A program made the position numbers and the translations under genes. From Planctomycetia bacterium (GTDB lineage: Bacteria; Planctomycetota; Planctomycetia; Pirellulales; UBA1268): DNA of 64,000 nucleotides. Of the stretch, positions 1 through 12,635 are shown piece after piece (the first letter of the stretch is position 1; each line of letters opens with the position of its first letter). The DNA lies in the NCBI GenBank assembly GCA_026401035.1, contig JAPLNR010000053.1:1-64000 (forward strand), read 5' to 3'. A model generated the notes under the pieces. It worked only from the letters and a program-made list of their open reading frames with translations, was not told the origin of the DNA and did no database searches.

Positions 1-522
1 CGGGTCCGTACCTACCAGGTGTGCAAGATGGTCCCCGAGCAGCGTGTTCGCACCTGCTCGTACCAGGTCTGCCGCATGGTGCCGGAAGTGCAGGTCCGCC
101 ACTGCACCTACCAGGTGTGCAAGATGGTTCCGGAACAGCGCGTCCGGTGCTACAAGGTCTGCAAGATGGTGGCCGAGCAGCGGGTTCGCACCTGCTGCTA
201 CAAGGTCTGCAAGATGGTGAAGGAAGAACAGGTCCGCACCTGTGAGTACAAGGTCTGCACGATGGTTGCCGAGCAACGCGTGAAGACCTGCACCCACAAG
301 GTGTGCAAGATGGTGGCCGAGCAGTGCTCCCGCGAGGAGTGCTACAAGGTCTGCACCATGGTGAAGGAAACGTGCACCAAGCAGGTGCCCGTCTGCACCA
401 CGCGTCCTGTTCACTACACCAAGACGGTCGACGTCGTCCGCATGGTGCCGAAGAAGGTCGCCTACACGGTGACCAAGTGCGTGCCGAAGACGGTCTACCG
501 CGAAGTGCCTTGCTGCGAGTAA
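1..522 (+). CDS. Cys-rich tandem-repeat surface protein, 3' part
   Basis: The reading frame is open from the first base of the window, so the gene starts upstream and only the last 173 codons are present. The protein is made of about nine imperfect repeats of roughly 17-18 residues with the core VCKMVPEQRVRTC preceded by a Tyr, so cysteines and Arg/Lys recur at fixed spacing. The last 50 residues depart from the pattern and end in VPCCE. The regular Y-x-V-C-x-M-V pattern resembles the YTV-type repeats known from planctomycete cell-wall-associated proteins; assignment to that family is inference. A disulfide-linked envelope role would fit the cysteine periodicity. No catalytic motif is visible. 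A strong intrinsic terminator follows about 60 bases after the stop. Confidence 0.8.
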   Translation, partial: RVRTYQVCKMVPEQRVRTCSYQVCRMVPEVQVRHCTYQVCKMVPEQRVRCYKVCKMVAEQRVRTCCYKVCKMVKEEQVRTCEYKVCTMVAEQRVKTCTHKVCKMVAEQCSREECYKVCTMVKETCTKQVPVCTTRPVHYTKTVDVVRMVPKKVAYTVTKCVPKTVYREVPCCE

Positions 523-619: not shown

Positions 620-724
620 GCTGCCCAGCTCGCCGCACTTTCCTCGCCCAACCCGCCGCCGAAACAACAGCAGGTTTCTGCGCGCTGAAATCTCTCCTTT
701 GACGACTTACGGAGCTGCAGCCTT

Positions 725-945
725 TCGCCACGGAAAACCTGAATGTTGCCGTGTTCTTCACGAGGTAGTTGTTGTTGTTGTTGAGGACTCCGTTGGGGTC
801 GATGTCGCCCCCTTGATAGATCCCGAAGTTGATGAAGTCGTTGTCCGAGGGGCCCACGACCGCGGGAGTGAAGCCATTGGGCGAAAGGAGACTGTTGGCG
901 GCCGCGCTGAATTCGAAGCTGCAGCCCTGTGCGGCTGCTCCGACT
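725..945 (-). pseudogene. Degraded fragment of a PEP-CTERM-type protein
   Basis: On the minus strand this stretch encodes LLSPNGFTPAVVGP, FINFGIYQGGDIDPNGVLNN and YLVKNTATF, which line up with the C-terminal third of the PEP-CTERM protein at 11781-12635 (NLSPNGFTPAIVGP, LNFAIYKGGDINPSGVLNN, RYLVKNKATF). The fragment has no matching start, an in-frame stop upstream, and loses the similarity just before where the PEP sorting signal should be. A run of five Asn codons (GTT/TTG triplet run on the plus strand near 770-783) sits where the intact copy has two. It is a paralogue fragment, not a recent copy, because DNA identity is only moderate. Boundaries are approximate. Confidence 0.65.
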
Positions 946-5514: not shown

Positions 5515-6663
5515 CTATTTATTATTTGCCGTCCGATGCTCTGCCATCGCCGCTTTGCGGATGATTTCGCAGATTCGACTGACCGCCTCTTTCGCTACCG
5601 CCTGCCCGGTCGGTAACACAATGACGCGGGCGGCAATGCGTTCGGTTTCGGACAAGAGAAGTCCGGCGTTAGGCTGCAGGGAGCGATACGGTTCCATATT
5701 GTGACAACCGGGCCAGAAGTATTTTCTGGCAATAATGTTTTCCGCATGCAAGGTCTTGACAATATCATCGCGGCTGCGGCGGCACCTCTCCGGGTCCACC
5801 TCAATCACGACATACTGGTAATTGTTCCGCTCGGCGGGATCGTATTTGATTACGGAAATTCCTGGCACGTCAGTCAACCCAGATCGATACGCCTCGTAGT
5901 TCTGGCGGTTCACCGCGATGATATCGTTCACCGCCTCCAGATTGGTTAACCCCATGGCCGCAGAGATTTCATTCATCTTCCCATTGATGCCGAGATACTC
6001 CACCTGATCGTAGCCAGTGAAGCCAAAGTTCGTCATCATCCGCATGCGGTAGGCCAGGTCGTCGTTGTTCAGTGTAACGACTCCGCCTTCCAGACAATTT
6101 ATGAACTTAGTCGCATGGAAACTGAAGACCTCGCATTCGCCAAACGTACCGATCATCCGCCCCCCCTTGGAACACCCAAAGCCATGCGAGGCATCATACA
6201 TTACTTTCAGATTTCGACGCGTTGAGATTTCCTCGATGGCCTCTGTTTTGCATCCCCTGCCCCACACATGCACGCCGATGATCCCGGTTGTCCTCGGCGT
6301 AATGAGCCTCTCTATCTTGGTCGGATCGATATTGTGCGTCACTGGATCCATGTCGCAAAACACGGGCGTTATCTCTTGCCACTGCAAGGCATGGGGCGTG
6401 GCGACAAAGGTGTAGCTGGGAACGATCACCTCGCCTTTGAGGCCAAGAGCGCGGCACGCGATTTCAATGGCTGCCGTGGCGTTGCACATGGCAATTGCAT
6501 GTTTGACTCCGAGAAAGTCGGCTACTTTGCTCTCAAACTCCTGCACTACTGGCCCGTGGTTCGTCAACCATCTACGATCCAGAATCTCGTTGACTCGCTC
6601 GAGGAATCGCTCCCTGTTTCCCAAGTTTGGGCGGCCCACATGCAAGTGTTTCGTGGTATCCAT
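5515..6663 (-). CDS. DegT/DnrJ/EryC1/StrS-family aminotransferase
   Basis: A 382-residue PLP enzyme of the sugar aminotransferase family. VPSYTFVATP (81-90), MYDASHGFG (155-163, Asp contacting the PLP ring nitrogen) and SFHATKFINCLEGG with the Schiff-base Lys186 are all present, and the length is normal. Such enzymes make 4-amino- or 3-amino-deoxy nucleotide sugars from keto-sugars. The ATG directly abuts the TAA of the upstream gene (TAA at 6664-6666), so translation is probably coupled. With the NeuD-type acyltransferase at 9693-10373 it suggests that an N-acylated amino sugar is built here. The downstream convergent gap to 5344 has no clear terminator. Confidence 0.9.
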   Translation of the reverse strand: MDTTKHLHVGRPNLGNRERFLERVNEILDRRWLTNHGPVVQEFESKVADFLGVKHAIAMCNATAAIEIACRALGLKGEVIVPSYTFVATPHALQWQEITPVFCDMDPVTHNIDPTKIERLITPRTTGIIGVHVWGRGCKTEAIEEISTRRNLKVMYDASHGFGCSKGGRMIGTFGECEVFSFHATKFINCLEGGVVTLNNDDLAYRMRMMTNFGFTGYDQVEYLGINGKMNEISAAMGLTNLEAVNDIIAVNRQNYEAYRSGLTDVPGISVIKYDPAERNNYQYVVIEVDPERCRRSRDDIVKTLHAENIIARKYFWPGCHNMEPYRSLQPNAGLLLSETERIAARVIVLPTGQAVAKEAVSRICEIIRKAAMAEHRTANNK

Positions 6664-10387: not shown

Positions 10388-10530
10388 TCAAAGCTTAAGA
10401 AGGACATCGATCGGGTAATTTCGCCTGCGCTCGAAACGCTCAATCGCCTGCGAGACATAGACACCGATATCGCGAGACAGGGCCGTCTGGTCGGTGAGTT
10501 CGGAGAGTCTGACGTGTGAACGCCGGTTGA
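10388..10530 (-). pseudogene. 3' remnant of a gene upstream of the acyltransferase
   Basis: Minus-strand coding-like sequence ending 15 bases before the acyltransferase start: SELTDQTALSRDIGVYVSQA and IERFERRRNYPIDVLLKL then stop. It reads like a natural helical C-terminus, but its 5' part is replaced near 10525 by direct repeats that look like an insertion-sequence end. The family cannot be identified from 40-45 residues. The 10571-10762 stretch beyond holds no recognisable gene. Confidence 0.35.
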
Positions 10531-10570
10531 AAAGTGCAGCGCGGGGCGGTCGAAAAGTGCAGCGCTGGGG
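10525..10570. repeat. Two 23-bp direct repeats (possible IS end)
   Basis: GGTTGAAAAGTGCAGCGCGG at 10525 recurs with period 23 as GGTCGAAAAGTGCAGCGCTG at 10548. Tandem copies of about 20 bp near an end are typical of IS21-family elements, whose transposase binds them. No istA or istB gene is present, so at most a terminal scar remains. Family assignment is inference. Confidence 0.4.
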
Positions 10571-10762
10571 TTGAATTGAATCTACTCCGGGGTAGCCGGT
10601 TGCTCCAAGGGTTGGTGGGTCAGGGAGTCCCTGCGGCCCGACTGTTGACGGTCCGGCGGCAGGGCGACACACTTTTTGGCACCATCACTCGGCCCAGAGC
10701 GTTTCGGGGAGTGGCGATCTGAGAAATCCCGGATCAACATGGCGTGTGAGGAGGTGCTAACC

Positions 10763-11872
10763 GTGTCGAAGGTTTCAACCGAACCACCAACGGATTACAC
10801 GCACGGTCTTCTCGCAATCGAAACGAGCATCGCCGACCAAGCGTGGCCCGAAGACGTCACGCCGGTTGTGAGCGTCCTTTGCTTCACCTTCAATCACGAG
10901 AGGTACATTCGGGACGCGCTCGAAGGCTTTCTGGCACAGACGACTCGCTTTCGCGTCGAGATCATCGTTCACGACGATGCGTCCACCGATTCGACGACGA
11001 CCATCGTACGACAATATCAGCAAAGATATCCAAGTCTGATCAAGACTATTACGCAGACGCAGAATCAGTACAGCCTTCGCGGCTACGCATTTGTTGGCGA
11101 CATGATATCTGCTGCCAAAGGTCGATACATCGCACTATGCGACGGCGACGATTACTGGACCGACCCGCTCAAGTTGCAAAGGCAAGTTGATTTGATGGAC
11201 GCGGATGCCGGATGTGTGCTGAGCTTTCACCCTTGCTCTTTCCGGGCAGAGGAGAGCGGGCTAACGCTCATCACTCCGCAGGACATGAAATATGTGCAGT
11301 ATGACTATACCGCAGAGAACGTGCTGGAGAGATGGGGAATTCCAACAGCCGCAATGGTCTTCCGAAACGTGCTACCGATTCTTCCTCCATGGTTCGCTAA
11401 GGTCGCGAGCGGCGATATCGCAATCGCGATGCTGCTCTACGAGCGCGGAACGTTCAGATGCCTTGAGGAACGAATGAGCGTCTATCGACTGACCGGCCTC
11501 GGCGCCTCGAGCTCGCATCATGGCGAGTTTATGCTCCAGAGCCGCGGCTATCTGTATGCAAAGCTGAACGAGCACTTCAACGGTCGATACGAGGACCAGA
11601 TTTCCCGGGCGCTCCTGCGCGTTGCCGAGTACCACGTAGCTCGGGACGGACTCTCGAGTGCGAGCGGCGATCCCAGGGAGGCAATGAATGCCACGCGGAA
11701 AGAAGGAACTGGGCAGATCATCCCCAATCTTCGAGAGATCGAGGTAGAGGTGGATAGGGGCAAGACCGTCCTGGAGGCGGTCAAGAAGATCGGCGTGACG
11801 GAGCAGGCCTACTATTGGATCGTCGCGAAATGGCTGCGCCGACGGCGGCCACAGCGGCGACCACCAGCGTGA
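10763..11872 (+). CDS. Glycosyltransferase family 2 with C-terminus replaced by an IS3 OrfA fragment
   Basis: Residues 1-310 are a GT2 enzyme: VSVLCFTFNHERYI, VEIIVHDDASTDST and ALCDGDDYWTDP (metal-binding DGDD), the type common in capsule and O-antigen clusters. GTG 10763 is chosen because GGAGG lies eight bases upstream. From about residue 313 the sequence becomes GQIIPNLREIEVEVDRGKTV and KKIGVTEQAYYW, the helix-turn-helix N-terminus of an IS3-family OrfA, then runs 13 further residues of out-of-context Arg/Pro-rich sequence. The transferase therefore probably lost its native C-terminus to an insertion, although the catalytic domain appears complete. It may still be active. Confidence 0.75.
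   Translation: MSKVSTEPPTDYTHGLLAIETSIADQAWPEDVTPVVSVLCFTFNHERYIRDALEGFLAQTTRFRVEIIVHDDASTDSTTTIVRQYQQRYPSLIKTITQTQNQYSLRGYAFVGDMISAAKGRYIALCDGDDYWTDPLKLQRQVDLMDADAGCVLSFHPCSFRAEESGLTLITPQDMKYVQYDYTAENVLERWGIPTAAMVFRNVLPILPPWFAKVASGDIAIAMLLYERGTFRCLEERMSVYRLTGLGASSSHHGEFMLQSRGYLYAKLNEHFNGRYEDQISRALLRVAEYHVARDGLSSASGDPREAMNATRKEGTGQIIPNLREIEVEVDRGKTVLEAVKKIGVTEQAYYWIVAKWLRRRRPQRRPPA
11698..11818 (+). mobile_element. Truncated IS3-family orfA fragment
   Basis: About 120 bases from the OrfA start codon (ATG 11698, MPRK-like in a shifted frame) to EQAYYW, the first helix-turn-helix of IS3 OrfA proteins. The rest of OrfA and all of OrfB are missing. The fragment is read on the plus strand as the tail of the glycosyltransferase, and antisense as the tail of the PEP-CTERM protein, so it joins two convergent genes at their 3' ends. 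Confidence 0.65.
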
Positions 11873-12635
11873 TGGTTGCCGGCTCCGGCACGATGATGAC
11901 CGAGTCGGGGCCGGTGCCAAGGCCAAACACGGCGGTGCTCCCGATATTCGCCTCGGTGAAGCCCGCGACCCCGCTGAAGGTGAACGTGGCCTTGTTCTTG
12001 ACGAGATACCTGTTGTTGAGCACGCCGCTGGGATTGATGTCGCCCCCCTTGTAGATCGCGAAGTTGAGAAACGTGTTGCCCGGCGGGCCGACGATCGCCG
12101 GCGTGAAGCCGTTTGGCGACAGGTTGGAGTTGCCCACCGTGCCGAGGCCGAAGCCAAGCCCCGGATGGAAGGCGGGATCCAGCGTGCGAAACTGCCACGA
12201 GGCATCGCCGTTGTTGACCGCCTTCAGGTTGCTGGCGATGCCACTGACCTGGGTGAAGGTCTGCGGTGTGTACTTGAATTCGAGGTCGTTGGTGCCATTC
12301 CGCACCTGGTAGACGAAGCCGGTCGCGCTCGTGTAGTTCAGGGTCGGCCGGCTCGTGCCGTTCCAGATGTCGAAATAAAAGCTGCTGAGGACGTCCGCAC
12401 CCTCCACCGAGTTGGTCGGCGACGTGTTCTCGAGGGTGACGGTCAGATTGCTGCCGCTGATCAAGAGTTTGGCCTTGAACTCGACGGGCCGTCCCGCACT
12501 CGACGTGCCGGAGCCGATGAAGACCACGTCGCCACGGGCGGGAAACGCGGCCAGAGCGACGACAACGACAGCGGCGATGACTGCCGTGAGGGTGGAAAAA
12601 AAGACGGAGCGGACGAGGATCGAAAGCGACGACAT
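11781..12635 (-). CDS. PEP-CTERM sorting domain protein
   Basis: A 284-residue secreted protein. ATG 12635 is supported by AAGGAG eight bases upstream; a longer in-frame opening to 12824 lacks such support. Residues 1-34 form a signal peptide with a long hydrophobic core ending in FPARG. The middle is an all-beta, Asn/Thr-rich domain. The C-terminus has VPEPATITLVVAAVAAVGAA followed by ISRR, the Pro-Glu-Pro motif, membrane helix and basic tail recognised by exosortase systems, often linked to extracellular polysaccharide. The final dozen residues come from the antisense strand of the IS3 fragment. The basic cluster itself is intact, so sorting could survive. A degraded paralogue lies at 725-945 in the same orientation. 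Confidence 0.8.
   Translation of the reverse strand: MSSLSILVRSVFFSTLTAVIAAVVVVALAAFPARGDVVFIGSGTSSAGRPVEFKAKLLISGSNLTVTLENTSPTNSVEGADVLSSFYFDIWNGTSRPTLNYTSATGFVYQVRNGTNDLEFKYTPQTFTQVSGIASNLKAVNNGDASWQFRTLDPAFHPGLGFGLGTVGNSNLSPNGFTPAIVGPPGNTFLNFAIYKGGDINPSGVLNNRYLVKNKATFTFSGVAGFTEANIGSTAVFGLGTGPDSVIIVPEPATITLVVAAVAAVGAAISRRSNSRPAPSRRSS

Follow-up and report, generated by a model that had tools for sequence, protein, structure and literature searches.

An IS3-family orfA remnant at the convergent 3′ ends of a glycosyltransferase gene and a PEP-CTERM protein gene

At approximately 11.7 kb in the window, the 64,000-nucleotide stretch analysed (bases 1–64,000 of contig C71, 191,681 bp long, in a draft genome of 3.77 Mb and 82 contigs), a plus-strand GT2 glycosyltransferase gene faces a minus-strand XDD4-family PEP-CTERM gene. 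The two open reading frames (ORFs) converge, their 3′ ends sharing 92 bp (11781–11872), and a terminator scan of 11500–12100 found none. The locus raises the question of where these two C-termini come from, and whether they are useful additions or debris. The features considered are listed below.

10515–10624, minus strand: IS21-type relic, the 3′ end of istB and what comes after it (90–92% to the best copies in related genomes)
10763–11872, plus strand: GT2 glycosyltransferase ORF, 369 aa, with a chimeric C-terminus (PF00535, E = 9.9e-20)
10763–11671, plus strand: native part of GT2, residues 1–303 (alignments of homologues L024 and L122 extend to residue 303)
11672–11814, plus strand: IS3-family remnant, 143 bp (IS positions ~58–205, orfA start to mid-HTH, 4-bp deletion after 11712)
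11672–11713, plus strand: GT2 residues 304–317 (14 aa), IS read in a non-OrfA frame (the frame ends in TGA in five close IS copies)
11714–11815, plus strand: GT2 residues 318–351 (34 aa), OrfA frame (61% over 46 aa to the OrfA on contig C24)
11816–11872, plus strand: GT2 residues 352–369 (18 aa) and stop, antisense to the XDD4 PEP-CTERM region (from the sequence)
11781–12635, minus strand: XDD4-family PEP-CTERM protein, 284 aa (NF045504, E = 5e-50, 170.2 bits against a cut-off of 40)
11781–11813, minus strand: IS-derived last 10 codons and stop of XDD4 (from the sequence and the IS alignment)

The IS3-family fragment and its edges

A preliminary description had placed an IS3 orfA remnant at 11698–11818. 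The remnant was recovered, with its coordinates corrected to 11672–11814. In DNA searches, the fragment was 76% identical to an orfA on contig C24 of its own genome (E = 3.4e-22) and 88–89% identical to the closest same-family IS copies in related genomes (E down to 8e-50). Matches at E ≤ 1e-6 were obtained in 29 of the 146 family genomes, own genome included, with at most five candidates scored per genome. Nine of the ten best non-self matches started at query base 113 (11672) and the tenth at 118, and all ten ended at query 254–256 (11813–11815). In a 15-copy alignment, 131 of 147 columns inside the fragment agreed with the majority of seven close copies. Agreement fell to 9/25, 8/25 and 12/25 on the left flank and to 4/16 and 17/45 on the right, and flank identity to the IS consensus was 25–48% overall. 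Since identity was high inside and low on both flanks, the breakpoints are placed at 11671/11672 and 11814/11815, within the uncertainty that shared bases leave. By these alignments the IS match is far beyond chance and both breakpoints are sharp. A gap-tolerant alignment to the C24 copy reached 11641; homology left of 11672 was rejected on the basis of the 12/25 agreement with the closest copies, lower agreement further left, and two GT2 relatives that align to residue 303.

A whole relative of the element was present in locus L055 of genome G006, with an OrfA containing HTH_Tnp_1 (49.3 bits), an OrfB containing rve (75.4 bits) and TGACCTGCCCCC ends on both sides, approximately 1.29 kb apart. 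The fragment was 85% identical to this IS and corresponded to its positions ~58–205. It is without the left ~57 bp and everything past mid-orfA and has no terminal repeats of its own, which makes it a fragment, not an element. By DNA homology to an IS with terminal inverted repeats, an HTH OrfA and an rve OrfB, it is classified as an IS3-family orfA remnant. The best-preserved orfA of the genome (L007/L049, contig C24) has a 112-aa frame, and only a truncated frame resembling orfB follows it. The own genome showed no complete copy of this IS, but some may be hidden at contig ends. Among 11 orfA places fetched (listed open frames of 152–446 aa), inspection by eye revealed no clear chimera with a host domain; these were IS copies with internal deletions or interruptions, or frames in which no host text could be recognised. 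Four IS copies (L210, L213, L214 and L216) carried internal deletions that, by eye, fused orfA and orfB text in one frame. The junction of IS, GT2 and XDD4 was not found in a second genome by the homologue and IS-copy searches.

Composition of the two C-termini

The tail of GT2 (residues 304–369, 66 aa) is a mosaic of three sources. The last ~60 residues had been read as orfA in sense; the IS origin of the C-terminus held, but the all-OrfA reading was rejected. Comparison with the C24 OrfA gave 61% identity over 46 aa, yet only 34 of the 66 residues lie in the OrfA frame and 32 outside it. In five of the 15 IS copies tried (L080, L081, L082, L083 and L108), the frame of GT2 reads PREATNATRKEGTG and then TGA; the remaining ten were indel-shifted, diverged or not located by the script. 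Four bases are missing from the window after 11712, where six of seven close copies have CTGA and the seventh TTGA. A 4-bp deletion would therefore have cost the GT2 frame its TGA and switched reading to the OrfA frame for the next 34 residues, a two-step frame history that we infer from the sequence of one genome. A look for selection by codon position across 11712–11814 had nine substitutions to draw on, too small a number to carry a signal and one that includes divergence of the IS.

On the opposite strand, XDD4 ends with 10 whole IS-derived codons (11813–11784) and one split codon, and its TGA (11783–11781) lies inside the IS, in agreement with the earlier claim that the orfA remnant read in antisense ends the PEP-CTERM protein. 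The Pfam PEP-CTERM model scored XDD4 at 19.9 bits, 0.8 bits under the cut-off of 20.7, and Exosortase_EpsH was present on contig C77 of the same genome. Based on NF045504, the PEP motif, the helix, the basic cluster and the exosortase in the genome, XDD4 is a predicted exosortase-dependent surface protein. It has 32 residues after PEP, and 17 of 18 homologues have 23–88; for L032, the remaining one, the script picked up a second PEP near the end. By this comparison its tail length is normal for the family, in which tails are naturally variable, and no conserved downstream sequence was seen by eye in the homologues. In the PEP-CTERM model of PMC1569441, the helix and basic cluster form an anchor that is likely cleaved off. 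By analogy, the IS-derived tail of XDD4 should matter little because such an anchor is likely removed. Elsewhere in the window, a piece at 714–938 (minus strand), 60% identical to XDD4 residues 155–227, lies in a 170-aa open frame without PEP-CTERM at its end, a partial XDD4 paralogue, and a 167-aa cysteine-rich repeat ORF (19–522, plus strand) contains four Pfam YTV repeat stretches (69.2 bits).

The GT2 ORF as listed starts at TTG 10676; a GTG at 10763 is preceded by AGGAGG, and the stop codon is at 11870–11872. The AlphaFold2 model, built with 37 sequences, had a mean pLDDT of 82.6, with 210 of 369 residues at ≥90 and most of the GT-A core at >90. Predicted native helices run to residue 295, beyond which confidence drops. 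Foldseek returned GT-A enzymes such as chondroitin polymerase and SpsA among the best PDB matches. In the 37-row alignment 15 columns were invariant, including residues of the GDDYW motif (D129, D130 and W132). PF00535, the predicted GT-A fold and the DxD-type motif identify the protein as a GT2 glycosyltransferase, with a GT-A core that is predicted to be intact.

GT2 was compared with 85 homologue ORFs, five from the initial search and the best 80 of at least 555; ten further loci fell outside the comparison. A BLASTP match to residues 1–303 was obtained for 83 of the 85, with alignment ends ranging from 155 to 303, and L024 and L122 aligned right up to residue 303, where the IS begins. With the full-length query, four homologues aligned weakly past this point (to 304, 309, 314 and 323; 32–39% identity overall). 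The tail matched the 85 ORFs only three times, at chance level (E = 0.77–9.9) and never as a shared C-terminus. An orthologous GT2 with the same C-terminus outside an IS context, the case named beforehand as speaking against the chimera, was not found among these ORFs. The chimeric protein had no relative in the searched genome contigs, and a plasmid search gave 22 records, all below 60% identity. Downstream of R242, homologues had a median of 103 residues (quartiles 87–115; 79 of 85 measurable), whereas native GT2 has 61, and fewer were present in just five of the 79. Since this part is shorter than in most homologues, a native C-terminal piece has probably been lost from GT2, and the enzyme may already be impaired because of its short native end.

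Decay of the element and rival explanations

We consider it likely that both new C-termini are a passive, non-adaptive scar of IS decay. An IS3-family element (~1.29 kb when whole) would once have lain between GT2 and XDD4, oriented as GT2. On the left, deletion would have taken ~57 bp of the element and, with them, the 3′ end native to GT2; on the right, ~1.1 kb of it would have gone along with the stop codon of XDD4. Each gene would then have been read into the remaining 143 bp up to the next in-frame stop, over 14 codons for GT2 and 10 for XDD4. The later 4-bp deletion would have removed this stop of GT2 and let reading continue in the OrfA frame and, past it, antisense across the 3′ end of XDD4. 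The new ends would have been tolerated because the working parts were kept, namely the GT-A core in GT2 and the PEP motif, membrane helix and first arginines in XDD4. The fragment, its edges, the 4-bp difference, the frames and the comparison with homologues are direct observations; we infer the order of these events, the expression of both genes and the neutrality of their ends. Several points count against a scar: the steps have left no trace in the form of an empty site, a target duplication or a sister genome; the one 4-bp indel could be a sequencing error; the tails are open for 66 and 10 codons, as a functional reading would also predict; and the short native end of GT2 may mean that the enzyme was impaired already.

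G+C content in 400-base windows was ~0.52–0.60 over GT2 and 0.62–0.67 over XDD4. The IS21-type relic at 10515–10624 lies on the 5′ side of GT2 and carries repeated GAAAAGTGCAGCG motifs; in L204, the stretch matching it abuts an ORF with IstB_IS21 (254 bits). The gene rdgB was present in five of six genus genomes, own genome counted, and together with an adjacent glycosyltransferase-like gene it was conserved in the four sister loci fetched. Neither GT2 nor XDD4 was found in the fetched 3.3–4.0 kb upstream of rdgB in these four sister genomes, an absence that covers these two genes alone, since genes further left fell outside the fetched stretch. The region of GT2 and XDD4 looks like an accessory segment carrying mobile relics. 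In L024 (genome G093), the closest GT2 homologue found in the initial search, the gene lies 160 bases after a DegT-type aminotransferase gene. The DegT/DnrJ/EryC1/StrS aminotransferases of the window (5518–6663, minus strand) and of L024 (3–1331) were 54% identical over 379 positions. Because L024 adjoins an aminotransferase gene related to that of the window, GT2 probably arrived with a polysaccharide cluster.

GT2 could be a pseudogene, truncated, laterally acquired and either not made or inactive, with a tail that is a meaningless reading. The absence upstream of rdgB, mobile relics on both sides of the gene, 74 of 79 homologues at least as long after R242, and a single weak match (40% over 129 residues) at E ≤ 1e-20 in the other 71 family genomes searched are all consistent with this. 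The core, however, has neither a stop nor a frameshift, its GT-A fold was predicted confidently, the GDDYW residues fall in invariant columns, and AGGAGG stands ahead of GTG 10763; we regard a pseudogene as unlikely.

The preliminary description had interpreted the junction as C-terminal innovation. Under a corresponding exaptation, GT2 would have gained a contact to a membrane or to another protein through helices derived from OrfA and an end rich in arginine (RRRRPQRR). The model does draw helices at 304–313, 321–331, 336–343 and 347–360, and the frame stays open across three different sequence sources. These helices were of low confidence, with pLDDT at 40–67 per ten-residue block of the tail, and PF01527 (HTH_Tnp_1) gave no match at E ≤ 1 to GT2 tails of 62 and 66 residues. 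The tail was common to none of the 85 homologue ORFs, no second genome was available to reveal selection, and the length of the XDD4 tail is within the homologue range. Innovation was therefore not upheld, and exaptation of the GT2 tail appears very improbable. Slightly less credit still is given to the broader proposal that one 143-bp IS fragment was captured as a shared bidirectional coding end, with a helical, arginine-tipped GT2 tail of OrfA and antisense PEP-CTERM sequence now in use. An artefact of assembly or sequencing, whether a wrong join within the IS fragment or a 4-bp deletion that is not real, is the least probable explanation of all: the draft has 82 contigs, IS repeats cause misjoins, the GT2 tail hangs on a single indel that could be a sequencing error, and up to 48 bases identical to loci of other genomes mean that DNA of a relative in the same sample could conceivably have been joined in through a short shared word, but the identical stretches between the region and the copies of its own genome reach no more than 11 bases (C24) and 25 bases (C82), and the contig spans 191,681 bp.

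Comparison with known systems and significance

Mobile DNA that supplies C-termini is already known. An RU-1 repeat is fused to the 3′ end of the Erwinia carotovora ECA3499 amidase (Delihas 2007, PMC2759123), where, as here, a small mobile sequence lies beyond the conserved domain, the normal stop is removed and a C-terminus is supplied. RU-1, as described there, is a MITE-like repeat acting on one gene, whereas here a truncated IS3 orfA serves a convergent gene pair, with one gene on each strand. Rickettsia palindromic elements are read inside protein-coding genes (review PMC10969869), so that mobile DNA is read as part of a host protein, as in the tails of GT2 and XDD4. According to that review, they are frequent, in-frame and give a conserved peptide, in contrast to the one degraded IS fragment seen here. 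By their sequences, both ORFs belong with mobile-element-derived C-termini of the RU-1 and Rickettsia kind, since each predicted protein ends in or beyond element sequence past its conserved domain. Among convergent overlaps of more than 60 bp, a length also exceeded by GT2 and XDD4, 124 were attributed to 3′-end extension through a frameshift or a mutated stop, which left 54 as possibly genuine (PMC2478687); the abstract of that study does not mention IS-derived sequence. A light literature search, judged by titles and abstract starts, gave no earlier case of a single element that provides the tails of both members of a convergent gene pair, which is weak evidence of absence.

If the tails were functional, the locus would be a rare double recruitment. 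As a probable scar, it is a compact and dissectable case in which IS decay resets C-termini and makes long convergent overlaps, with the stop-removing deletion still visible. It also serves as a warning for drafts with many IS relics, where residues at a protein's C-terminus can be transposon scrap or the product of antisense reading.
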